From the NCBI RefSeq assembly GCF_000025965.1, contig NC_006824.1:1-64000 (forward strand): a stretch of 64,000 bases of DNA. Reading direction: 5' to 3'. The notes below the pieces were generated by a model. The model searched no databases. It had not been told where the DNA came from and saw nothing but the letters and a program-made list of their open reading frames with translations. Below, piece by piece: positions 23,815 through 37,323 of the stretch; the stretch's first letter is position 1, and each line of letters begins with the position of its first letter. The translations under genes were made by a program, and so were the position numbers. This DNA comes from Aromatoleum aromaticum EbN1 (GTDB lineage Bacteria > Pseudomonadota > Gammaproteobacteria > Burkholderiales > Rhodocyclaceae).

Positions 23815-24414
23815 GTGCTGCCGTTCGTTGCGGATCTACCCCCGCTGGAGCAAGAGCGCATCGTGTGCTCGATCTCGTCTGCCGTGAAGTACGAAGTGCC
23901 CGCCAACATCGTCTTGGCAGTCGCCGAGAAAGAGGGCGGCAAACCCGGCCAGTGGGTTCGCAACACGAACGGCACCCATGACGTAGGCCCGATGCAATTC
24001 AATACCGCGTACCTGCGCGAACTGGAGCGGTACGGCATCACGGCGAACGATGTAGCGGCCGCTGGCTGCTACTCGTTCGACCTGGCCGCCTGGCGGCTGC
24101 GGATGCACCTGCGCAACGACAAGGGAGACATCTGGACGCGAGCCGCGAACTACCATTCGCGCACACCGCAATTCAATGCCATCTATCGCGCCGACCTGAT
24201 GAAGAAGGCGGCGAAATGGGCGGATTGGCTGGAAGCCCGGTTTGTCACCCTCGACGTAATCAAAGAGGGCGCAGCGCCTTCAACACCAACGATGCAGGCG
24301 CCTGCCCCTACGGCCGCGGCGGCGACTCAAGCCGCGCAACCGACCCCGCCGCGATCCACGCGCACGGGTGCGTATGTGCCGCGCCAGATCACTTTCACCA
24401 GCGCGAACGAATGA
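23815..24414 (+). CDS. trbN: TrbN lytic transglycosylase (VirB1-like)
   Basis: Peptidoglycan-cleaving enzyme that opens the cell wall for the secretion channel. GTG 23815 is preceded by GGGGAGG with about eight bases spacing, giving 199 aa. The SLT fold shows ANIVLAVAEKEGGKPGQWV with the likely catalytic Glu, then GTHDVGPMQFNTAYL and AANYHSRTP. No clear signal peptide is visible from this start. It overlaps the trbP start (ATGA). Confidence 0.88.
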   Translation: MLPFVADLPPLEQERIVCSISSAVKYEVPANIVLAVAEKEGGKPGQWVRNTNGTHDVGPMQFNTAYLRELERYGITANDVAAAGCYSFDLAAWRLRMHLRNDKGDIWTRAANYHSRTPQFNAIYRADLMKKAAKWADWLEARFVTLDVIKEGAAPSTPTMQAPAPTAAAATQAAQPTPPRSTRTGAYVPRQITFTSANE

Positions 24415-25109
24415 CGCCGCTGCGACTCTCGGAGGGCTCCCTGGAGGCCTTGAAGTGGATCGCCCTGCTATTGATGACAGGGGATCACGTCAATAAATAC
24501 CTGTTCAACGCCACCCTGCCGGTGCTGTTTGAGGTCGGCCGGGTTGCACTGCCGCTCTTCATCTTTGTCCTGGCTTACAACCTCGCACGCCCCGACGTCA
24601 TGGCGCGAGGGACGTATGGCCGCACGATGAAGCGCCTGGGGCTCTTCGGTGCGGTGGCTTCGGTCCCTTTCATCGCCCTGGGCGGGTTGGCCTTCGGGTG
24701 GTGGCCGCTCAATGTGCTTTTCACACTCCTAGTCATCGCTGGCACGCTGCTCCTAGTCGAAAAGGGCAGGACAGGCACCTGGATCGTCGCCGGCATCCTC
24801 TTCCTGATCGGCGGCAGCTCTGTCGAATACTGGTGGCCCGCAGTCGCCCTCGGCCTCGCCGCGTGGTGGCACTGCAAGCACCCGTCATGGTGGTCGGCCG
24901 CCGCGGCAGTGCTAGCGTGCGCGGCCCTCGGGCCGGTCAACGGAAATCTGTGGGCTCTGGCCGCCGTGCCGCTCGTGCTGATTGCCTCGCGGATCGAGCT
25001 TCGTATGCCGCGCCTTCGGCGGGTGTTCTATGCTTACTACCCGCTGCACCTCGCCGCGCTTTGGCTGATCCGCATTCCGATGAGCAAAGCCGGATACCTG
25101 TTCTTTTGA
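24411..25109 (+). CDS. trbP: TrbP, TraX-family membrane protein
   Basis: Polytopic membrane protein of 232 aa, the same length as RK2 TrbP, of the TraX family (F-factor TraX acetylates pilin; for TrbP the role is not essential). The N-terminal LKWIALLLMTGDHVNKYLFN motif and about seven hydrophobic helices are visible; the closing FYAYYPLHLAALWLI is characteristic. It follows trbN directly; the trbO gene that RK2 has in between is not seen. It closes the Tra2 block. Confidence 0.9.
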   Translation: MTPLRLSEGSLEALKWIALLLMTGDHVNKYLFNATLPVLFEVGRVALPLFIFVLAYNLARPDVMARGTYGRTMKRLGLFGAVASVPFIALGGLAFGWWPLNVLFTLLVIAGTLLLVEKGRTGTWIVAGILFLIGGSSVEYWWPAVALGLAAWWHCKHPSWWSAAAAVLACAALGPVNGNLWALAAVPLVLIASRIELRMPRLRRVFYAYYPLHLAALWLIRIPMSKAGYLFF

Positions 25110-25640: not shown

Positions 25641-25645
25641 AAAAA

Positions 25646-25688
25646 GTACGCCGTACCTATTGACTAAGGTACGGCGTACCGATACATT
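25646..25688 (+). promoter_or_regulatory. promoter embedded in a perfect 12-bp inverted repeat
   Basis: GTACGCCGTACC (25646-25657) and its exact complement (25668-25679) flank a ten-base loop. TTGACT (25660-25665) in the loop and TACATT (25683-25688) are 17 bases apart, a good sigma-70 promoter for the island starting at 25716. Each arm is itself nearly palindromic, as expected for a dimeric repressor's operator. Confidence 0.7.
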
Positions 25689-25715: not shown

Positions 25716-26015
25716 ATGCACAGCACTCATCACTTCAAGACGCGGATGTCCCAGCGTGGCATTACGGGGGACATGGTGAATCTGGCCCTCGAGTACGGCG
25801 AGGAAGACCCGGAGAACCTCGCTCGCCTGGTGTTCGGTCGTCGCCGGGCCACCCAGCTCATCGAAGAAAAGCAGCGCCAGGTGCGGGCCAAGGAGCAGGC
25901 GCTGCGTGAGGAGAAGCGCGAGCTGAAGCTCCTCAAGAAGTTGGCCGACAAGGGCGGGATCGTTGTTGTGGCGGCGGACGCTACCCTGATCACCACCTAC
26001 AACCTGGCCGCCTGA
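25716..26015 (+). CDS. DUF4258-domain small protein
   Basis: First gene behind the palindromic promoter, 99 aa, with AAGGAG upstream. HFKTRMSQRGITGDMVNLAL at the N-terminus and a final beta stretch (IVVVAADATLITTYNL) match the DUF4258 fold, which resembles small RelE-like toxins. A charged helix (LIEEKQRQVRAKEQALREEKRELK) separates them. It ends one base before the next gene, so it is co-expressed with the methylase-like protein. A toxin or regulatory role for the restriction island is a guess. Confidence 0.65.
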   Translation: MHSTHHFKTRMSQRGITGDMVNLALEYGEEDPENLARLVFGRRRATQLIEEKQRQVRAKEQALREEKRELKLLKKLADKGGIVVVAADATLITTYNLAA

Positions 26016-26016
26016 C

Positions 26017-27840
26017 ATGCTTGACGGTTCAGTCAGCCGCAGCTTGGGACGCCTATTGCAGCCGTTGAGGGCAACGCCCCTCGAGGTGGAGCAGCAGGTC
26101 ATTTTCGCCACGCAGCTCGCGACGTGGGTGTGGCTCGCCGCGAGCGACAAGATCCCGGAGGCGCTTGCACCGCACGGGCAGCCGCTGCCCCCTAATGAGG
26201 TTGGCCGCATCTTCCGGCAGCTGCGCAGTCTGCCGGCGCTGCGCGGCAACGGCGATGCCTTTATCGCGGACGACAGCCTGATTCACGCGGTTTCCGAGGC
26301 GGTGCTGGGGAATCTTCTGCATGAAGCCCGGCATCTGGTTAAGGGCGGATTCATTGGTGCCGAGTTCGTTGACGAAGTCCTGATAGCCTTGGGGTCCGGC
26401 GCAGGTCGCAGTGGCATAGGCATGTTCACGATGCCGCACGAGCTGGTGCAGTTGCTGATTGGGCTTGCAGACATCCGCCCCGGCGAAGAGGTCTACACGC
26501 CGTTTGACGATGCGCTGCAGCTCTCGCTTGCGGCAGCGCAGGCCGGCGCAAGCGTCTTCACGGAAATGCCGCGCTACTCCCCCCTGCCGTATCTGATCAA
26601 TCTGCTGACCAAGCAGCAGATTCATGTGAATGCCGGGCGCGACCCCATCACGCACCCCAGCTTCGTTGACGGCCCGCGGCTGCGAAGCTTCGCCAAGACT
26701 GTGTCGTTCCCGCCGATGGGCGTGCGCCTCCCCCTTGAAACGAGCGACCGCGATCTTTATGGACGCTTCCGCGAGCGCACGACCTCCAGCAGCGTGCTCG
26801 CTGCTCGCCACGTCCTGGCACAAACCCAGCGCCGCGCGGTCATCCTCGCGCCCAACAGTCTGTTGTTCGGTGCGGGGGCGGAGCGATCACTTCGCCAAGA
26901 CCTGGTGCATGGCGGACTCGAAGCCGTTATCGGCCTGCCGCCCGCGACGCTGTTCGGGACCGCTATTTCGCTGGCTGTTATGGTGATTAATCTCGAGCAG
27001 GCCGCAACACACGTGGAAGTCCTGTTCGTCGACGGCAGCGCCGACCGCTTCCACAAGCGGGACGGCAAGGGGCGCACAACGCTGACAGGCTGGCGCGAAC
27101 TGTTGCAGGCGGTCAATCAACGCCGGACCGGCGATCATGTGACGGCTGTTCCATCGCAAGTCATCGAGGAGAACGACTACCAACTCATGGTGTCGCGCTA
27201 TGCGCGTTCGCCAATGATTGATGCGGTAGACGAGGCACTGCGCAGAAGTGAGGTGGTGCCGCTTGAAGAACTGGTGGAGTTCATCCGGCCAGTGCCGGCC
27301 CGCGCTGCAGGCAGCGCGGAGGAGCTGCCGGTTGAAGCGCTCGAGGTAGGCGTCCCTGACCTGCCGGAATACGGTTACATCCGCAATCCTCAGAAGCGCG
27401 TCCGCCTAGAGGCTTTGAAGAACGCGTTGCGGCCCCTCGACATCCTGATCAGTGTAAAGGGCAGCGTCGGCAAGGTTGGAATCGTTCCGCCCGATCTCGA
27501 CGAAACATGGGTGGCTGGGCAATCCTGCTTGATCCTGCGCCGGCGCGACGGCGCACATCTTCACAGGCCGCATTTCCTGTTGCTTTACCTACGTTCAGCC
27601 ATCGGCAAGGCAAGCCTTGAGCGCATCGCGTCGGGGACCGCGGTGCCGCTCATTCAGCTCCGCGAGCTGCGCAAGCTTCTTGTCATAATACCGACAGCGC
27701 AAGAGCAGGCAGCGGCGGAGCAGGCTTTCGGGCAACTGGTGACCCTGCAGCAGCAGATCGAGGACTTGCGCGCGCAGCAGCAGCAGATCGCAGCGGGATT
27801 CTGGCCGCTGCCAGGCCTGGCCAACGCTGGCTCCACATAG
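26017..27840 (+). CDS. N6-methylase-like/specificity fusion with degenerate catalytic motifs
   Basis: 607-aa protein built like a type I modification subunit joined to a specificity half. Residues about 138-330 follow the HsdM fold: MPHELVQLLIGLADIRPGEE, then PNSLLFGAGAERSLRQDLV and LEAVIGLPPATLFGTAI. The SAM motif (normally DPxxGxGG) reads VYTPFDDALQLS, and the catalytic NPPF/Y box reads SFPPMG at about 230, so methyl transfer looks lost. The C-terminus (about 430-600) is a target-recognition half: DILISVKGSVGKVGIVP, then IQLRELRKLLVIIPTAQEQ and a coiled coil. It lies between DUF4258 and hsdR. Possible roles: a DNA-recognition adaptor, a decoy or a regulator. Confidence 0.65.
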   Translation: MLDGSVSRSLGRLLQPLRATPLEVEQQVIFATQLATWVWLAASDKIPEALAPHGQPLPPNEVGRIFRQLRSLPALRGNGDAFIADDSLIHAVSEAVLGNLLHEARHLVKGGFIGAEFVDEVLIALGSGAGRSGIGMFTMPHELVQLLIGLADIRPGEEVYTPFDDALQLSLAAAQAGASVFTEMPRYSPLPYLINLLTKQQIHVNAGRDPITHPSFVDGPRLRSFAKTVSFPPMGVRLPLETSDRDLYGRFRERTTSSSVLAARHVLAQTQRRAVILAPNSLLFGAGAERSLRQDLVHGGLEAVIGLPPATLFGTAISLAVMVINLEQAATHVEVLFVDGSADRFHKRDGKGRTTLTGWRELLQAVNQRRTGDHVTAVPSQVIEENDYQLMVSRYARSPMIDAVDEALRRSEVVPLEELVEFIRPVPARAAGSAEELPVEALEVGVPDLPEYGYIRNPQKRVRLEALKNALRPLDILISVKGSVGKVGIVPPDLDETWVAGQSCLILRRRDGAHLHRPHFLLLYLRSAIGKASLERIASGTAVPLIQLRELRKLLVIIPTAQEQAAAEQAFGQLVTLQQQIEDLRAQQQQIAAGFWPLPGLANAGST

Positions 27841-27914: not shown

Positions 27915-30059
27915 ATGACCAACGAGGCGTTCTCGCGCGTCAAAATCGACGCTCAGCTCAAGGACCAGGGCTGGGAAATCCTCAATCCGAACGCTGTGCG
28001 CTTCGAGTACGTCCTTTCCGACGGCACCAAGGCGGACTACGTGCTGTGTGACCGCCACGGCCGGGCGCTCGCCGTCGTTGAGGCCAAGAAGGCAGCCATC
28101 AACCCGGCCGAAGCCGAAGCGCAGGCCAAGGCCTACGCCGTGCAGCTCCAGGTGCCCTACATCTTCCTTGCCAATGGCGAAGAGATCCGGTTCTGGGAGT
28201 GGGAACGTGAAGCTTTCCCGCGGACCGTGAAAACGTTCTTCGCGCAAAGCGACCTGGAGCGGCGGGCTGCGACCGGCCAAGTCAAACGCGACCCGCTCAC
28301 CGTCCAGATCGACAAGCACATCGTCGAGCGCGACTACCAGACCGCCTGCATTGACAAGCTCTGCCAGGAGATTACTGCCGGCAGGCGAAAGCTCCTCGTC
28401 GAAATGGCGACGGGCACCGGCAAGACCCGCACCGCGGCGGCCTTCATCAAGCGTCTTTTTGAGGCAAACGCCGTCACGCGCGTGCTGTTTCTGGTCGATC
28501 GCATCCCGCTTGCCAAACAGACCGAGGACGCCTTCGCCGAGCATCTATCCGACTTTCCCGCCTATGTCCTGCGGACCGGGCGACGCTTCCAGGACGAAAA
28601 ACGCATCACCATCACGACGCTGCAAAGCATGGTGAACATCTATCACGAGTATTCCGCCGGCTACTTCGACCTCGTGATTTCGGACGAATGCCACCGGTCA
28701 ATCTATGGCAAGTGGAGCGGGGTGCTGAAGCACTTCGACGGGATACAGGTCGGTCTCACCGCAACGCCCTGCGTTGCCAACCTCGGGGATTTGGGCGACG
28801 CGGAAGACAAGCTCTTTGTCCGCGACACGCTCCGCTTCTTCGAGGTGGACAAGCCGACCTTCAGCTACAAGATGAAGGATGCGATCCACGACGGCTACCT
28901 GGTGCCCTACCAGATCTACAAGGCCAAGACGGTGAAAACCGCCGCGGAAGGGGGTTTCGAGGTCAAGCGCGGCGAGCTCGACTGGTCGGCGATGGACACA
29001 ACCACCCGCGCAGAGTTCGAGAAGCTCTTCGAGGGGAGCGACGCGATCGTGATCGATCCCAATGCGCTCGAGCGGAAATTCACTATTCCGGAGCGGAACC
29101 GCGCCATCGTGCGCGAGTTCCGCGAGGTGCTCGAGAAAGGCTTCACGGACGCCAAGGGTGTGGTGCGCAAACCGCTCCTTGGCAAGACCATCGTCTTCGC
29201 GGTGACCAAGCGCCACGCGGAGACCCTCGCCCAGCTGTTCGATAGTGCCTTCGCCGACCAGAAACCCTCGCCTGAGGTGCGTTACGCGGATTATGTGGTC
29301 TCCGGCATGGGCAAGGACGACACCGTCGACGGGATGACCAAGATCAAGCGCTTCAAGAAGGAGCCGTTCCCGAAGGTGCTGGTTTCGGTCAACATGCTCG
29401 ATACCGGTTTCGACTGCCCCGAGGTGGCGAATCTGGTGTTCGCGCGGTTCACCCGGTCAGCCATCCTCTATCAGCAGATGCGCGGCCGCGGCACCCGCAA
29501 AGCCAAGGGCAAGCCCGTCTTCACGATGTTCGATTTCGTCGGCGTCACGGACTATCACGGCGACAACGACGCGGAAGGGGAGGGCGGGATCGTCATCCAG
29601 AAAGCCGCCCCCAAGAGGCCCACGGAGCCCCGCAAGCTGCTCTCCCTCGATATTGACGACCACATCGACCCGACCACGCGCGAGTGGGTCACGGTCGATG
29701 AAGACGGGAACATGGTGTTCCCCGAAGCTTCGGAGCAGAAGCAGGCCGAGATTGGGGCGCGCTTCGAAGCCTGGCTGCTGGCGCAGGAAGAAACGCTTTC
29801 GCCGGACGAAGCGCGCTGGCTGCGGACCGTGGGCAGTCAGCTCTACGCGAACGTCGATGCCTGGGATGAATTTACCGCCGGGCACTTCGCCTTTCCGCCT
29901 TTCACCCTGATGGGCGGTCTTCCTGAAGCTCTGCGCGTGTTCAGCAGCGGGAAGCGCCTCGACACCCTCCTTGAATCGTTAAACGACGCTGTGTTTCAGA
30001 CGGATGCGCAGGACAACGGCCCCCCCACGCCTCTGCGCCAAGCAGCAACCGCCTCATAA
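27915..30059 (+). CDS. hsdR: type I restriction enzyme R subunit
   Basis: DNA translocase/endonuclease of a type I restriction system, 714 aa (shorter than many HsdR of 800-1100). The nuclease core has D41 and E56-x-K58 (TKADYVL ... LAVVEAKK), a PD-(D/E)xK arrangement. Helicase motifs are MATGTGKTRTA (about 164-174), DECHRS (about 256-261), LTATP, and the late VSVNMLDTGFDCP and QMRGRGTR. The start has AAGGGGAAG upstream. The 3' neighbour is hsdM. Confidence 0.92.
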   Translation: MTNEAFSRVKIDAQLKDQGWEILNPNAVRFEYVLSDGTKADYVLCDRHGRALAVVEAKKAAINPAEAEAQAKAYAVQLQVPYIFLANGEEIRFWEWEREAFPRTVKTFFAQSDLERRAATGQVKRDPLTVQIDKHIVERDYQTACIDKLCQEITAGRRKLLVEMATGTGKTRTAAAFIKRLFEANAVTRVLFLVDRIPLAKQTEDAFAEHLSDFPAYVLRTGRRFQDEKRITITTLQSMVNIYHEYSAGYFDLVISDECHRSIYGKWSGVLKHFDGIQVGLTATPCVANLGDLGDAEDKLFVRDTLRFFEVDKPTFSYKMKDAIHDGYLVPYQIYKAKTVKTAAEGGFEVKRGELDWSAMDTTTRAEFEKLFEGSDAIVIDPNALERKFTIPERNRAIVREFREVLEKGFTDAKGVVRKPLLGKTIVFAVTKRHAETLAQLFDSAFADQKPSPEVRYADYVVSGMGKDDTVDGMTKIKRFKKEPFPKVLVSVNMLDTGFDCPEVANLVFARFTRSAILYQQMRGRGTRKAKGKPVFTMFDFVGVTDYHGDNDAEGEGGIVIQKAAPKRPTEPRKLLSLDIDDHIDPTTREWVTVDEDGNMVFPEASEQKQAEIGARFEAWLLAQEETLSPDEARWLRTVGSQLYANVDAWDEFTAGHFAFPPFTLMGGLPEALRVFSSGKRLDTLLESLNDAVFQTDAQDNGPPTPLRQAATAS

Positions 30060-30079: not shown

Positions 30080-31702
30080 ATGCCCCTGACCCCAGCCATG
30101 CGCCGCTCGATCGAGCAGATACGGGACTATCTGTTCGGCGGCGGCTACCCGGACCCGGTGAGCAACGCCGAGCAGCTCTCTTTTCTGTTCTTCTTCTACC
30201 TGGTCGAAGGCATCGACGCCGAGAACGAGGCCCGCGCCAAGGTCCTTAAAACCCCCTATGAAAGCCTGTTCAAGAGCTCATGGACGCTCAGGAACCCCCT
30301 CAACGCCCTCGCCAAAGGTGAAACCACGATCCCGCGCGATCGTTTCCGCTGGTCGGTCTGGGCCACCGCCCTGTCCGGTGAACCGCTGGTTCGGTTCCTC
30401 CGGGACGAGGTGTTCGCGTTTTTCACCGAGATGGCGGGCAATGGCGCGGTCAATTTCATGCATGGCGCGCGACTGGTGATCGACGAGCCGACCGTGCTCA
30501 ACCAGGTGGTAACGCTCGTCGACGGGCTGCACCTCGACCGGGCCGATGCCGATACCAAGGGCGATCTCTTCGAGCACGTCCTGCGCCAAATCAAGCAGGC
30601 GGGCGAGCTCGGGCAGTTCCGCACCCCGCGGCACATCATCCGCGCGATCGTCGAGATCATCGATCCGAAGATCGGCGAGACCATCTACGACCCGGCTGCC
30701 GGCACGGCCGGGTTCCTGGTGGCGGCCTACAACCACATCCGCCTGGCCAACTCCTCGCCGGCGGGAATCCAAAGCGTCGAGCTTGACGGCAAGATGCAGA
30801 CGCGCGGTCTCGGCGACAAGCTCTCCACCGCGCAGCTCTCCGCCCTGCAGAGCAAGACCTTCTTCGGCAACGACGTGGACCCGAAGATGGTGCGCCTGGC
30901 CACCATGAATCTGACGCTGCGCGGCCTTCCCAACGTCCACATCCTGCTGCGCAACGTCCTGACGACCACGCTCGATAACGAGCGCAAGGCGGATCTGTGC
31001 CTGCCGCAGGAGGGCTATCACGTCGTCCTCGCCAATCCGCCGTTTTCGGGGCGGGTGGACAAGGACCGCATCGTCGATGACGTGAAAATCGGCACCACCA
31101 CGGCGACCGAGCTGCTCTTCCTCAAATACATGATGGATTCCCTGCGGCCAGGCGGGCGCTGCGGCGTGATCGTGCCCGAGGGCGTGCTCTTCGGCTCGAC
31201 CGGCGCACACAAGGAGCTGCGCCGGCAACTGATCGAGAACAACCGGGTCGAGGCGGTGATGAGCCTGCCGGGCGGGGTCTTCCAGCCGTATTCCGGCGTG
31301 AAAACCTCGGTGCTGTTCTTCCGGAAGGGCGGCAGAACCGAGAACGTGCTCTTCCTGCATGTCGATAACGACGGCTACAAGCTGGATGCCAATCACGACA
31401 CGCCCATCGAGGCCGACGATCTTCCGGGCCTGGTGGCCGCTTACCGGGATCGTGAAGCGAACCGCGAGGCGTGGGCGAGCCGGGAACCGCAGGCGGAATG
31501 GAGCGCCCCCTGGTGGTTCGCGGATGCCGCCGCGCTCCGCGCCAACGACTTCAATCTCTCGGCCGGGCGCTACCGGCCGATGAGCCAGTCCCAGGTCGAA
31601 CACCGCGACCCGCGCAAACTGCTCGATGAGCTGGCCGCGATCGAGGTCGAGATCGCCGAAGAAGTGGAAGCGCTGCGCGCAGCGTTGGGTGAGGCGGCAT
31701 GA
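30080..31702 (+). CDS. hsdM: type I restriction-modification system M subunit (N6-adenine methyltransferase)
   Basis: Adenine-N6 DNA methyltransferase of 540 aa. An N-terminal helical HsdM domain (about 1-150) precedes the SAM site IYDPAAGTAGFLVAA (about 201-215). The catalytic motif LANPPFSGRV lies at about 317-326, and PGGRCGVIVPEGVLFG follows. All motifs are intact, in contrast to the upstream fusion protein. It overlaps hsdS by ATGA. Confidence 0.93.
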   Translation: MPLTPAMRRSIEQIRDYLFGGGYPDPVSNAEQLSFLFFFYLVEGIDAENEARAKVLKTPYESLFKSSWTLRNPLNALAKGETTIPRDRFRWSVWATALSGEPLVRFLRDEVFAFFTEMAGNGAVNFMHGARLVIDEPTVLNQVVTLVDGLHLDRADADTKGDLFEHVLRQIKQAGELGQFRTPRHIIRAIVEIIDPKIGETIYDPAAGTAGFLVAAYNHIRLANSSPAGIQSVELDGKMQTRGLGDKLSTAQLSALQSKTFFGNDVDPKMVRLATMNLTLRGLPNVHILLRNVLTTTLDNERKADLCLPQEGYHVVLANPPFSGRVDKDRIVDDVKIGTTTATELLFLKYMMDSLRPGGRCGVIVPEGVLFGSTGAHKELRRQLIENNRVEAVMSLPGGVFQPYSGVKTSVLFFRKGGRTENVLFLHVDNDGYKLDANHDTPIEADDLPGLVAAYRDREANREAWASREPQAEWSAPWWFADAAALRANDFNLSAGRYRPMSQSQVEHRDPRKLLDELAAIEVEIAEEVEALRAALGEAA

Positions 31703-32925
31703 CCTTTCCCCGCTTTCGGCTCGCAGACGTTTGTGACATCAACCCACGGCTGCCGCGTACTCATGGCATCACGGACGACACGCTCGTGTCCTTCGTGCCG
31801 ATGGCCGCCGTTGACGAATTGACCGGCACTATCGCCACATCACAGAGCCGCTCATTCGCCGAGGTGAAGAAGGGCTACACGTCGTTCCGTGAGAACGATG
31901 TACTGTTTGCCAAGATCACGCCTTGCATGGAGAACGGCAAGGCCGCGCTCGCACAGAGTCTTGTCGGCGGCGTCGGCTTCGGTTCGACTGAGTTCCACGT
32001 CCTGCGCGCTGGTCCGCAAGTGCTGCCCGAGTGGCTGCGCTACTTTGTCAGACGCGAAGAGTTCCGCCGCGAAGCCAAACGCAACTTCACCGGCACGGCT
32101 GGACAGCAGCGCGTGCCAACCACTTTCCTCTCTGGCGCAGAGATTCCTGTCCCCTCGCTCGACGAGCAGCGGCGAATCGTCGACCTCCTCTCTCGTGCAG
32201 AGGGAATTGTCCGGTTGCGGCGCGAGGCGCAGAGGAAGGCCGCCGAGATCATCCCCGCACTGTTCGTCGACATGTTCGGCGACCCGGCGACGAATCCGAA
32301 GGGGTGGCCTGTTACGACAATTGGGAGCTTGAGCTCCTACACTCGCTACGGTCCCCGTTTCCCGGACCGTCCGTATGCGGCTGAGGGTGCCCACATTCTC
32401 AGAACGACAGACATGGGCTATAGCGGGGATATCCATTGGTCGGACGCGCCCGTCCTGCCAGTCACCGTCGACGAACTGGAAAAGTATCACCTAAGACCTG
32501 GAACGCTCTTGGTAACCCGAACCGGGGCCACGATTGGTAAGATTGCCATCTTTCGCGGCGCTGAAGAACCGTGCATTGCGGGTGCCTACCTAATAGAGAT
32601 CGGCTTCCAGGCTCAGGTGATCCCCGAATATATCCTGCACTTCTTGCTTAGCGCCTTCGGCCAGTCTCAGCTGGTCCGAGGGAGTCGTGCAGTAGCACAA
32701 CCAAATATCAACGCTCCAACGATCTGCGCCATACCAATTCCGTTGCCACCTCTTGAAATACAGGCGCGCTTTGCTGCAAGTGTCGATCAATTACGAGCTG
32801 CACAGGGATTGCAGGAATCGGCAATGGCGAAGGCTGAGGCAATCTTTAATTCGCTGCTGGCGCAGGTGTTTTCCAGAGACGACCAACGGGCGGCCACGCG
32901 ACTGGAAGAGGCAGCCGTGGCATGA
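31699..32925 (+). CDS. hsdS: type I restriction-modification system S (specificity) subunit
   Basis: Sequence-recognition subunit of 408 aa with two target-recognition domains. The first covers about 1-155 (FRLADVCDINPR ... TTFLSGAEIPVPSLDEQRRIV) and the second about 205-360 (WPVTTIGSLSS ... ICAIPIPLPPLEIQARF). Each is followed by a conserved coiled-coil spacer. The start overlaps the hsdM stop. The last bases overlap a 24-codon frame (32922-32996) that I do not call a gene. Confidence 0.92.
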   Translation: MTFPRFRLADVCDINPRLPRTHGITDDTLVSFVPMAAVDELTGTIATSQSRSFAEVKKGYTSFRENDVLFAKITPCMENGKAALAQSLVGGVGFGSTEFHVLRAGPQVLPEWLRYFVRREEFRREAKRNFTGTAGQQRVPTTFLSGAEIPVPSLDEQRRIVDLLSRAEGIVRLRREAQRKAAEIIPALFVDMFGDPATNPKGWPVTTIGSLSSYTRYGPRFPDRPYAAEGAHILRTTDMGYSGDIHWSDAPVLPVTVDELEKYHLRPGTLLVTRTGATIGKIAIFRGAEEPCIAGAYLIEIGFQAQVIPEYILHFLLSAFGQSQLVRGSRAVAQPNINAPTICAIPIPLPPLEIQARFAASVDQLRAAQGLQESAMAKAEAIFNSLLAQVFSRDDQRAATRLEEAAVA

Positions 32926-33017: not shown

Positions 33018-34889
33018 ATGAAAGCTACCGCCGTTTCGCTGTTGGCTCTATTCGAGACCAAGATGCAGCTCGAAGTGCCGCTTTTTCAGCGGCAATACAT
33101 TTGGCAGCGCGAAAAGCATTGGGAGCCGCTGTGGGAGGACATCGCCCGAAAGTTCACCGACTATCTTGACGGTCGCAAGGACGCACCTGTGCATTTTCTG
33201 GGTGCGATGGTACTTGACCTGAAGCAGACTCCGGCCACCCATGTCGGCAAGCGCCAGGTCATTGACGGGCAGCAGCGGCTCACTACACTCCAGATTTTTC
33301 TATCGGCATTCCGAGATTTCTGTAGCGAACATAGCTGTGAGGACATGGCGAAGGAGTGCGCCAACTTCACCCTGAACAAGGGGATGATGGCCGATCCCGA
33401 AGTAGACAAGTTTAAAGTCTGGCCGACCCAGCTCGACAGAGCGCAGTTCGTCGATGTCGTCGGATCCGGTTCACGAGTCGAAGTCTTGAAGCGCCATCCG
33501 CTACGCAAGCGGCCCTACGCCCGTGGCTTCGACCCTAGACCGCGCATGGTCGAAGCCTATTTTTATTTCTATGAACAGCTTGAAGCGTTCTTCATCGGCA
33601 CCAAGGCAGAGCCGCCGCTCGCTGCCGACGCGCCGCTTTCAGCGCGCGTCGATGAGTGCTTCCAGGCTTTGAAAGGTGCGCTGCAGGTCGTCGAGATAGA
33701 TCTGGAACAAGGCGACGATGCGCAAGTCATCTTTGAGACCCTGAATGCGCGCGGCGAGCCCTTGTTACCTGCCGACTTGCTGCGCAACTTCATCTTTTTG
33801 CGCGCGGCACGACGGGGAGAACCGCAGGAAGCACTCTACAAGCAGTATTGGGCGCGCTTCGATGACCCGTTCTGGCGCGTTGAAGTCAAGCAAGGTAGGC
33901 TCTTACGACCCCGCAGCGACTTGTTTTTGCAGCATTTTCTTGCCAGCCGTTTGACCACCGACATCCCAATCAAGCACCTCTTTGTCGAATACAAGTTCTG
34001 GATTGATCGCACCGAACCATTCCCATCGGTCAAGGAAGAGCTGGCCTGCCTGGCGCGACAAGGCGATGATTTCCGGCGAATCATCGCCCCCGCCAAAGAC
34101 GATCCGATCTATGGCTTGGTCACTTTTCTCGACGCCTACGACGTGCGCACCAGCTATCCGCTGCTGCTCACGATGCTCGACGCCGGATTAGACGACACGC
34201 AGTGGGCGGTAGTATCTACCGTCCTCGAATCCTACCTGCTGCGCCGAGCCGTCTGCGGGTTGACGACAAAGAACTACAACCGCGTTTTCCTCGGTCTGAC
34301 CAGAAGCCTGCGGCGCGATGGCGTAACCCCGGAAAACCTAGCCGGGCTCCTTGCTGCGCAGACGGGTGACTCAACCGAATGGCCTGCCGACGATAGGTTT
34401 GCCGAAGCGTGGCGGACGCAACATGCCTATCATTTGTTAAACAACCCAAAAATCGTTCATATCCTGAAGCGGTTAAGCGATACCTACTTTACCAGCAAGA
34501 ACGAGGGCGTTTCCTTCGACCACCCGCTGACGGTCGAACATATTTTGCCGCAGCAGTGGGCCGACAAGTGGCCCTTGCCTGACGGCTCAAAAGGCATGAC
34601 GACCGCAGAGCTGTGGACGGCTGCAAAGGACGATCCGCGCGCCGAAGCATCGCGGAGTCGGAACAAGCTGCTGCAGACATTCGGCAATCTCACCATCTTG
34701 ACGCAGACGTTGAATTCGTCCGTGTCGAATAGCGAATGGGACGTTAAGCGGCCTGAACTACTGAAATATTCTCTGCTGCCAATCAACCAAATGCTGCACG
34801 ACGTAACGCAGTGGGATGAAGCCGCGATTGCTAAGCGTTCCGATGACCTGCTCGCTCGGGCACTCAAAATCTGGCCTCGCCATGTCTGA
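33018..34889 (+). CDS. DUF262/DUF1524 protein (GmrSD-like, type IV restriction-type)
   Basis: 623-aa protein with an N-terminal DUF262 domain (FQRQYIW at about 23-29; VIDGQQRLTTLQIF at 81-94) and a C-terminal DUF1524 region (VEHILPQQW at about 506-514, then NKLLQTFGNLTIL). Such proteins include GmrSD, which uses nucleotide hydrolysis to cut modified phage DNA; the late His and Asn residues fit an HNH-type nuclease. It lies 92 bases after hsdS and ends just before an intrinsic terminator, so it is probably the last gene of the island operon. Confidence 0.85.
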   Translation: MKATAVSLLALFETKMQLEVPLFQRQYIWQREKHWEPLWEDIARKFTDYLDGRKDAPVHFLGAMVLDLKQTPATHVGKRQVIDGQQRLTTLQIFLSAFRDFCSEHSCEDMAKECANFTLNKGMMADPEVDKFKVWPTQLDRAQFVDVVGSGSRVEVLKRHPLRKRPYARGFDPRPRMVEAYFYFYEQLEAFFIGTKAEPPLAADAPLSARVDECFQALKGALQVVEIDLEQGDDAQVIFETLNARGEPLLPADLLRNFIFLRAARRGEPQEALYKQYWARFDDPFWRVEVKQGRLLRPRSDLFLQHFLASRLTTDIPIKHLFVEYKFWIDRTEPFPSVKEELACLARQGDDFRRIIAPAKDDPIYGLVTFLDAYDVRTSYPLLLTMLDAGLDDTQWAVVSTVLESYLLRRAVCGLTTKNYNRVFLGLTRSLRRDGVTPENLAGLLAAQTGDSTEWPADDRFAEAWRTQHAYHLLNNPKIVHILKRLSDTYFTSKNEGVSFDHPLTVEHILPQQWADKWPLPDGSKGMTTAELWTAAKDDPRAEASRSRNKLLQTFGNLTILTQTLNSSVSNSEWDVKRPELLKYSLLPINQMLHDVTQWDEAAIAKRSDDLLARALKIWPRHV

Positions 34890-35866: not shown

Positions 35867-36340
35867 ATGACTTCTGGACCCGTTCTCTCGTTCTGGGATC
35901 TGTGTTTCAACAATCTGCCGCAGGGACCCTTTGAACGCCGCACCATTGCCGCGGACGAAGCCCGCTCCCTGATCGATGCGGCCCGCAGCGCCGGAACGTT
36001 GCGCTGCGTCAGCAGCGACGACCTGCTCGCGCCCAATCGGGAACGGCAAAGGCGGGGGCACGATGCCCTTCGCGACGTGCTCCTCGACAACTATGACCTC
36101 CCCCTGCGCTTCGAGGATTTTCTGTCCGGCTCCGCGGACCGGGAGGACGGCGTACAGAGCGTGACGCCGCTGCAGGTGGCGCGCCTGCAACCGGGCGAAC
36201 GGATGCTGGGGGTGAGCTGCGACTACGTCTTTTCCAAAAATCCCGGGATGGCCGATCCGGAGAATCTCTTTGCCATCGACGCGGAGTCCGTGGGCTTCGA
36301 TCTGATCACGGCACTGCCCCAGAGAGGGACGGCACCATGA
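35867..36340 (+). CDS. hypothetical protein, coupled to the recombinase
   Basis: 157-aa soluble protein from ATG 35867 with a strong AAAGGAG. I do not recognise the family. It has a hydrophobic start (VLSFWDLCFNNLPQGPF), an alpha-helical middle and a closing RMLGVSCDYVFSKNP. Its stop overlaps the integrase start (ATGA), so the two are translated together. A 14-codon frame (35826-35870) overlaps its start and may be a leader. It could modulate the recombinase or belong to the toxin-antitoxin unit. Confidence 0.6.
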   Translation: MTSGPVLSFWDLCFNNLPQGPFERRTIAADEARSLIDAARSAGTLRCVSSDDLLAPNRERQRRGHDALRDVLLDNYDLPLRFEDFLSGSADREDGVQSVTPLQVARLQPGERMLGVSCDYVFSKNPGMADPENLFAIDAESVGFDLITALPQRGTAP

Positions 36341-37323
36341 GCCGCCCGCTTCCTCCAGCTTCCGTTGTCGGAAGGGTGACTATCGTCCCGCAGTCCCCCC
36401 TCCCGGCCCTGTTCTGCTCGGACGAGGCCGCCGCGCGCCGGTTCGTCGAATTCTTCACCGCCAACATCCGCAACCCCAACACGCGGCGGGCCTATGGACG
36501 GGCGGTGGCCGGCTTCGCCGCCTGGTGCGAGCAGGAAGCCCGGATCACCGCGCTGCGCGACATTGAGCCGGTGCATGTCGCCGCCTATGTCGAGACGCTG
36601 CAGACGCGCCTGTCGGCCCCCTCGGTCAAGCAGCACCTGGCCGCCATCCGCATGTTGTTCGACTGGCTGGTGGTCGGCCAGGTCGTCGCGACCAATCCGG
36701 CGAGCGCTGTGCGCGGCCCGAAGCACTCGGTCAAGAAAGGCAAGACGCCGGTGCTCGCCGCCGACGAGGCCCGCGCTCTGCTCGACGCGATCGATGTCAG
36801 CACCGCCGTAGGCCTGCGCGATCGCGCCCTCATCGGCCTGATGGTCTACACCTTCGCCCGAATCGGCGCGGCGCTAAAGATGCGGATCGAGGATGTCTAT
36901 GTGCAGGGCCGGCGCAGCTGGGTGCGGCTGCACGAGAAAGGCGGCAAGCGGCACGAGATGCCCTGTCATCACAATCTCGAGGAGTATCTGCACGCCTATA
37001 TTGAGGGCGCGCAACTCGCCGGTGCGGGCAAGGCCTTCCTCTTCCGCACCGCCATCGGCCACACCGGCAGACTCTCCGAGCGCCCGATGTCCCAGGCCGA
37101 CGCCTACCGGATGATCGGCCGCCGCGCGGCGGACGCCGGCATCCTCACCCGCATCGGCAATCACTCCTTCCGCGCCACGGGCATCACTGAATACCTACGC
37201 AACGGCGGCAAGCTCGAGATCGCGCAACAGATGGCCAACCACGAGAGCGCCCGCACTACCGGCCTTTACGACCGCCGCAATGACCAGCTCACCCTTGATG
37301 AGGTCGAGCGAATCGTGGTCTAA
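36337..37323 (+). CDS. tyrosine recombinase/integrase
   Basis: Site-specific recombinase of 328 aa with a complete active site: R175 (YTFARIGAAL), K201 (HEKGGK), H276-x-x-R279 (NHSFRATGI), H302 (ANHESARTTG) and Y311 (GLYDRR). The N-terminal SAM-like core-binding domain (about 35-125) includes NTRRAYGRAVAGFAAWC. It overlaps the preceding unknown gene. The form resembles XerC/D-like recombinases of mobile elements and integrons. No flanking att repeat was found by eye. It could mobilise the whole 25-37 kb island. Confidence 0.9.
   Translation: MSRPLPPASVVGRVTIVPQSPLPALFCSDEAAARRFVEFFTANIRNPNTRRAYGRAVAGFAAWCEQEARITALRDIEPVHVAAYVETLQTRLSAPSVKQHLAAIRMLFDWLVVGQVVATNPASAVRGPKHSVKKGKTPVLAADEARALLDAIDVSTAVGLRDRALIGLMVYTFARIGAALKMRIEDVYVQGRRSWVRLHEKGGKRHEMPCHHNLEEYLHAYIEGAQLAGAGKAFLFRTAIGHTGRLSERPMSQADAYRMIGRRAADAGILTRIGNHSFRATGITEYLRNGGKLEIAQQMANHESARTTGLYDRRNDQLTLDEVERIVV

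Follow-up and report, generated by a model that had tools for sequence, protein, structure and literature searches.

A degenerate type I methyltransferase and half-specificity fusion, proposed as autorepressor of a restriction operon in Aromatoleum aromaticum EbN1

The control of type I restriction-modification systems is little known (PMC12707154, section 20), and the parts of the literature available for this comparison describe two controllers: RptR of Escherichia coli, a 9-kDa, four-helix protein that reads TAGCTA and represses a type I restriction island (PMC12255303), and a C-family protein encoded at an hsd locus of Mycoplasma (PMC12707154). Autogenous control of restriction-modification is exerted by C proteins and by the regulatory methyltransferases EcoRII, SsoII and Ecl18kI, sometimes through the methyltransferase polypeptide itself, and these regulators employ a helix-turn-helix or a fused repressor domain (PMC12707154). 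A related architecture is that of M.AhdI, an M2S2 enzyme with half-specificity subunits that reads GACN5GTC (PMC2878638). DUF4258, which accompanies the protein discussed below, is a toxin family of the BECR fold (RelE/ParE superfamily), whose activity is unknown (PMC11980606). Within the accessible portions of the open-licence PMC literature, no report of a dead M-S fusion that controls a restriction operon was recognised, and neither DUF4258 nor HsdM is mentioned in the available part of a BREX survey (PMC12839542).

The locus considered here lies in a stretch of 64,000 nucleotides of Aromatoleum aromaticum EbN1 (hereafter the window), part of a 223,670-base contig in a genome of 4.73 Mb and three contigs. 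Its plus strand carries, in succession, a gene for a 99-residue DUF4258 protein (25716..26015; Pfam PF14076, 26.2 bits, just above the cut-off of 25); 1 bp further on, the gene for a 607-residue fusion of a degenerate HsdM with half an HsdS, here named pMS (26017..27840) and proposed as a DNA-binding autorepressor; hsdR, encoding the restriction subunit (27915..30059, 714 residues); hsdM (30080..31702, 540 residues); hsdS, with two recognition stretches (31699..32925, 408 residues); and a GmrSD-like type IV restriction gene (33018..34889, GmrSD_N and GmrSD_C). Pfam matches confirm this order, proposed in a first-pass annotation, and the intact hsdM that had been placed in the operon does possess ANPPF and DPAAGTAG. 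The GmrSD-like gene is a neighbour rather than a constant part of the module, and has no BLAST match in the stretches fetched from other pMS loci. The restriction island is flanked by a TraX gene (24216-25106) and a gene for an XerC/D-like integrase (36337-37320); the contig may be a plasmid or may carry a mobile element.

The pMS protein matches Pfam N6_Mtase solely along the C-terminal half of that family (profile positions 166-305 of 311, residues 263-398, E 5e-14) and contains a single Methylase_S stretch (residues 475-569, E 1e-4 with Pfam), which amounts to one recognition domain (TRD) with its flanking conserved region. A profile of nine pMS relatives matches HsdM of EcoR124II (7bst_D, E 1.4e-35) and also HsdS subunits of known structure, these over one half (best E 4.5e-11); the HsdM scaffold and the recognition half, as originally described, are both retained. 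The SFPPMG reported in place of NPPF was also found, as VSFPPMG at residues 229-235 in motif IV, where NPP[FY] would stand, and the NPPY of 7bst_D aligns to fpPfg of the nine-relative profile. At the motif I position, VYTPFDDALQLS, TPFDDALQ replaces the SAM motif DPxxGxG. The reported absence of DPxxGxG holds for this protein and most relatives and fails for five members from Bacillota (L011, L015, L057, L058, L059), which keep motif I in part; it is lost in the other members. No helix-turn-helix domain was present among the Pfam and NCBIfam matches of 26017-27837 with E up to 0.1. These features suggest that pMS is a former type I DNA methyltransferase joined to a single half-specificity domain, in which catalysis would have been lost and sequence-specific DNA binding kept, a description judged probable as part of the whole repressor reading developed below.

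The first-pass annotation had raised the possibility of an association confined to this strain. This is not so: DUF4258, the degenerate fusion and hsd genes recur in Pseudomonadota, Campylobacterota and Cyanobacteriota. Searches by tblastn and with profiles gathered 21 pMS loci and then four more, and the 25 loci compared belong to these three phyla and to Bacillota. The hosts include, on the Rhodocyclaceae side, the window, Rhodocyclus, Azospira and a Rhodocyclaceae MAG; elsewhere, Halopseudomonas, Pseudomonas abyssi, Leucothrix, Roseovarius, Roseomonas, Aliivibrio and Sulfuricurvum; and also five cyanobacteria, Salimicrobium, Lactobacillus, Lactococcus (two) and Paenibacillus. Among the 23 unsplit members, which exclude the split genes of L012 and L013, none keeps NPP[FYW] and 22 have lost the Asn of motif IV, L011 alone retaining it, as NFPF. 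The family is rare. With the own or centre genome included and thresholds that differ between searches, it was found in 3 of the 297 genomes searched in the window's family, 1 of 369 in its class, 1 of 398 in its phylum and 6 of 398 in the family to which Halopseudomonas belongs. The phylum figure counts the window's own genome and drops a second match, G762 (L020), which is an HsdM with NPPF. Single-sequence scans of genome contigs and viral contigs gave no pMS match; an alignment query yielded seven loci from genome contigs, of which six are pMS and the seventh, L027, is HsdM-like and was rejected, and no pMS from viral contigs. A phage search returned one weak partial match, annotated as type I restriction-modification. 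L045 and L046, which duplicate stretches of L023 and L024 exactly, were not counted.

The loss of catalytic motifs, the two-ORF pMS genes of Roseomonas and Roseovarius and an apparent N-terminal frame break in two cyanobacteria could be taken as signs of a decaying remnant, a broken methylase gene that drifts beside the operon. However, frames of 538-632 residues are open in all 16 proteins compared (four phyla, near-copies included), the operon position recurs, and in a methylase-domain tree 17 pMS members cluster together (99/98), separate from 14 true HsdM, taken from pMS loci and from a Methylococcus plasmid. That tree places L011 and L015 on the HsdM side, so that the pMS label requires two changes on the best tree, and it contains four long pMS branches, one join of long branches being flagged. 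The recognition domain, which is the most variable part of an ordinary HsdS, is conserved in pMS about as well as the methylase domain: identities are 52% against 35-45% in the methylase part between the window and Rhodocyclus, 75% against 50% between L050 and L023, and 95% against 97-99% between L023 and L024. Conservation across loci speaks strongly against a local fusion or a remnant, and the chance left to decay is minute. In the cyanobacterial loci L007 and L008, the apparent frame break near the N-terminus of pMS falls at the same run of nine T, and could represent slippage or phase variation.

DUF4258 directly precedes pMS in 14 of the 21 loci (window, L021, L022, L025, L023, L024, L026, L050, L052, L005, L006, L012, L013, L014) and is absent from the other seven (L007, L008, L009, L010, L011, L015, L051). 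Type I hsd genes lie downstream of pMS on the same strand also in 14 of 21 (window, L021, L022, L025, L023, L024, L026, L050, L052, L006, L011, L012, L013, L015); in L022 the contig ends after hsdM, the sole hsd gene visible there, and in Roseomonas (L012) hsdS and hsdR are in pieces and hsdM was not found. The hsd genes precede pMS in Oscillatoria and are convergent in L051, L007 has hsdM and a piece of hsdS divergent from pMS, and no hsd genes were found in the stretches fetched of L008, L009, L010 and L014. Both Lactococcus loci (L057, L059) have hsdM and hsdS behind pMS.

This arrangement, together with the retained HsdM-like C-terminal half and half-S, would suit an accessory subunit of the restriction enzyme, which could join HsdM/HsdS or HsdR and either alter the choice of site or restrain restriction of unmodified host DNA. 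Yet pMS heads hsd lineages as different as those of the window, Rhodocyclus and Azospira, whose HsdM are only 22-26% alike over 292-365 residues; four loci, as just described, show no hsd genes in the fetched stretch; and a Methylococcus plasmid carries the same hsdR, hsdM and hsdS (75, 82 and 62% identical to those of the window) and no pMS. Such a role, which would moreover leave the operator-like sites described below unexplained, appears very unlikely. The differing hsd lineages and the Methylococcus operon indicate instead that the operon head is a module placed on unrelated restriction operons, and that it can be missing.

Other features of these neighbourhoods deserve mention. On the Methylococcus plasmid, a WGR-domain gene (L056:8654-8995) heads hsdRMS where the window has DUF4258 and pMS. 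Between L023:14028-16995 and L024:14208-17425 there has been a specificity swap, hsdS and the gene after it being different; HsdS is 33% alike, as against 97% for HsdM, 95% for HsdR and 95-99% for pMS. Genes for an XRE regulator and a PIN protein stand beside the pMS operon in Sulfuricurvum and Leucothrix (L006:12327-13881 and L026:7963-9565), 48% and 46% alike and differently arranged, and a gene for an SprT-like protease follows hsdR in L021:20103-20819, L023:20091-20846, L024:20489-21244 and L005:10037-10735.

The promoter region of the window operon carries an operator-like palindrome. Upstream of the DUF4258 gene, two copies of the palindrome RGTACGNCGTACC bracket the -35 box of a sigma-70-like promoter, TTGACT-17-TACATT (25660..25688, plus strand), assigned by consensus match (9/12). 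Copy 1, AGTACGCCGTACC (25645..25657), is located just upstream of the -35 box and has one mismatch to GGTACGNCGTACC; copy 2, GGTACGGCGTACC (25668..25680), is located between -35 and -10; together they form a perfect inverted repeat with 13-nt arms and an 8-nt loop (25646..25679). Across the whole genome (4.73 Mb), at most one mismatch to GGTACGNCGTACC occurs in three places, two of them in this promoter, and the pattern read backwards, as a control, occurs in 19. RGTAN5TACY in L018, from the organism's own chromosome, is inside an ORF. The repeat at 25646-25679 also scores as a terminator-like stem on the minus strand; that it is a terminator only is ruled out by L021, L022, L025, L007 and L008, which carry a single copy. 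This promoter palindrome and the wide conservation of pMS are new relative to the first-pass annotation.

Eight of the 21 loci have RGTA-N5-TACY in the 150 bp that precede the operon: the window (two copies), L021, L022, L025, L005, L007, L008 and L051. Its position is -49 in L021, L022 and L025 and -62 in Oscillatoria; L051 has it at -47, in the form AGTATGCAATACT; in two cyanobacteria that lack DUF4258 it overlaps a putative -10 box. For counting, the 21 loci were reduced to 16 representatives by setting aside the near or close relatives L022, L025, L023, L050 and L008; five of the 16 have RGTA-N5-TACY, the mean of 300 shuffles being 0.127 and the maximum 2. Other lineages display other half-sites in the same geometry (…A-N5-T…), a palindrome centred on a base pair: AGCA-N5-TGCT in L024, GTTA-N5-TAAC in L006, ATCA-N5-TGAT in L012, ACTA-N5-TAGT in L009, AGTAA-N5-TTACT in L011 and TACTA-N5-TAGTA in L015. 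In L009 and L011 the site is present in two copies, with the same half-site and different spacers.

When the geometry was defined as arms of at least 5, a spacer of 5 bp and an inner A within 120 bp upstream, it was present in 9 of the 16 representatives, against a shuffle mean of 1.38 and maximum of 5 (300 shuffles), and the ten other spacers tried between 0 and 10 gave 0-3 representatives each; the window, L021 and L007 are missing from this count because their arms at N5 are only 4 long. Among 222 upstreams of other genes in the same 16 loci, 13 carry such a site (Fisher p 6.8e-7 against 9/16, and 7.6e-6 without the A/T-rich L010, whose site lies in an A/T run), as do 7 of 90 mostly intergenic upstreams (p 2.5e-5, and 1.6e-4 without L010), although these intergenic controls contain less A+T (0.54) than the operon upstreams (0.64). 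With no condition on the inner base, the counts also rise for other odd spacers (11/16 for spacer 3, 9/16 for spacer 7), in part through nested arms. Four representatives, L026, L052, L013 and L014, have no such site upstream.

These counts depend on operon starts and half-sites chosen by the analyst, some of them after the palindromes had been seen. The analyst's first-gene starts were employed where annotation differed (L005, L007, L008, L012) and our own ORF reading in unannotated loci; by annotated starts, the sites of L007 and L008 lie 304 and 214 bp upstream. For L009 and L011, the spacing and 222-upstream counts use the start of the small gene upstream. Among the loci fetched afterwards, L061 fits fully, its pMS being 91-92% identical to that of L051; the Lactococcus loci L057 and L059 carry a perfect palindrome at -50 in which the inner base at N5 is T and AGTA/TACT are 7 apart; and L058, from Paenibacillus, fits only in A/T-rich DNA.

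The protein that reads these sites should be common to the loci, variable between lineages in its specificity, and able to bind a palindrome with a fixed spacer, a description that pMS fits by its sequence; since it has one recognition domain, a dimer would read two identical half-sites. Half-site similarity follows TRD identity with r 0.46 (p 0.0008) over the 16 loci with a site and r 0.37 (p 0.04) over 11 representatives, and follows the pseudo-methylase domain with r 0.35 (p 0.004, 15 loci), the half-sites being analyst-chosen and the loci with no clear site (L026, L052, L010, L013, L014) left out. Over nine loci, the correlation is r 0.43 (p 0.007) with DUF4258 and r 0.50 (p 0.004) with the TRD; over six representatives both fall short of significance (DUF4258, r 0.15, p 0.30; TRD, r 0.36, p 0.10). 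The idea that DUF4258 reads the operator is weakened by L007, L008 and L051, where the RGTA site occurs without DUF4258 and pMS is the gene next downstream. Taken together, the correlations, the loci that lack DUF4258 and the conservation of the pMS recognition domain lean towards pMS as the reader, and within the repressor reading DUF4258 is probably an accessory first gene and partner that does not read the operator itself.

A different relationship between the two proteins would be that of a toxin-antitoxin-like pair, in which pMS would be a DNA-binding antitoxin, DUF4258 a toxin and co-repressor, and the restriction genes a guarded cargo. The available parts of two surveys lend this some weight: Tables 1 and 2 of PMC11980606 enter DUF4258 among the toxin families and record DUF4258-MqsA fusions, and according to a survey of E. 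coli (PMC10790755) the partner gene always lies downstream of it, the table of PMC11980606 giving the order A/T. Further points in its favour are that the two genes are adjacent in 14 of 21 loci, with a gap of 1 bp in the window, and that all seven aligned DUF4258 sequences conserve the residues H, R, R, G-G and TTY. Against it, seven of the 21 pMS loci have no DUF4258, and the pair is separable, the same DUF4258 subfamily being found at the head of unrelated genes on plasmids of Acinetobacter, Aeromonas and Moraxella, with LRAT-like, 115-residue, DUF3944, 195-residue and other genes behind it. We hold a toxin-antitoxin pair to be unlikely.

The plasmid loci examined (L036:7031-8029, L037:7001-9026 and L038:7001-9061, from Acinetobacter and Moraxella) are themselves of interest. 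On two Acinetobacter plasmids DUF4258 stands directly before a lecithin-retinol-acyltransferase-like gene and on the Moraxella plasmid directly before an unannotated gene; a prokaryotic viperin gene follows in L037 and L038. On a further Acinetobacter plasmid (L035:5986-9011) DUF4258 precedes a DUF3944 gene, divergent from a gene of the dynamin family. DUF4258 may be the leader gene of several defence-type operons.

Considering the locus as a whole, it is probable that pMS is a controller made from a methyltransferase, a dead M-S fusion that would dimerise, read the promoter site and repress its own operon. The degeneracy and conservation of pMS, the operon order and the operator-like sites with their geometry are demonstrated at the level of sequence. 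As proposed, two pMS chains would assemble in the manner of M2S2, each contributing the same half-S domain, and the dimer would recognise a palindrome of two half-sites 5 bp apart, RGTA being the half-site in the window's lineage. The putative sites in the promoter of DUF4258-pMS-hsdR-hsdM-hsdS are, in the various loci, next to the -35 box, in the spacer, over the -10 box or just downstream, positions at which a bound protein should obstruct RNA polymerase. The simplest reading would be steric repression with negative feedback, the choice of negative over positive control being drawn from site positions only. Under a negative autoregulator of this kind, the operon would be strongly expressed just after it enters a new cell, or once pMS has been titrated away or removed, and weakly expressed at steady state; release of pMS by dilution in a new cell, or through capture by anti-restriction DNA mimics, is a guess. 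Of the three roles offered in the first-pass annotation (regulator, anti-anti-restriction decoy, DNA sensor), the operator-like sites of half-S geometry in the gene's own promoter argue for the regulator only.

DNA mimics of the Ocr and ArdA type plug the restriction enzyme through its M/S scaffold. Since pMS has kept such a scaffold, it could act as a guard or decoy which the mimics also bind, thereby triggering the operon or the DUF4258 protein. This function appears quite unlikely, although the repressor model could accommodate it as the step that lifts repression. In the most far-reaching version of the proposal, pMS would found a class of transcription factors derived from type I methyltransferases, and the mimics would strip it from the operator because it still resembles the enzyme that they attack, switching on the operon and DUF4258; as a whole, this version is decidedly doubtful. 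In it, a site of the kind once methylated by the ancestors of pMS would be employed as an operator, and the inhibition of restriction would itself be the alarm. With or without the mimics, a controller derived from an inactivated methylase-specificity fusion would point to a new origin for transcription factors, and to a dead enzyme that reads DNA for a new purpose. The 13-bp candidate operator, present in two copies at the head of a module that is found on unrelated restriction operons, makes the proposal testable.

Several known systems can be compared with pMS, as far as their available descriptions go. With M.AhdI it shares a half-specificity domain; an M2S2 assembly is proposed for it, and a palindromic target with a 5-bp spacer is suggested by the sites of this geometry upstream in 9 of 16 representatives. 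Unlike M.AhdI, an active methylase whose M and S are separate chains, pMS is a single chain without NPPF whose candidate site lies in its own promoter. Regulatory methyltransferases such as EcoRII, SsoII and Ecl18kI are working enzymes. Unlike these and the C proteins, pMS has no helix-turn-helix match, and its own TRD would do the reading of DNA. Through its match to PF14076, the partner gene resembles the DUF4258 toxins, of BECR fold and unknown activity (PMC11980606); in contrast to DUF4258-MqsA, the partner here is a pseudo-methylase, and this DUF4258 is a putative toxin at most. RptR is encoded by the first gene of a type I hsd operon and binds and represses its own promoter through palindromes, as proposed for pMS; RptR, however, has no methylase or specificity domain, whereas pMS has 607 residues and other domains, and the palindrome in the window is RGTACGNCGTACC rather than TAGCTA.
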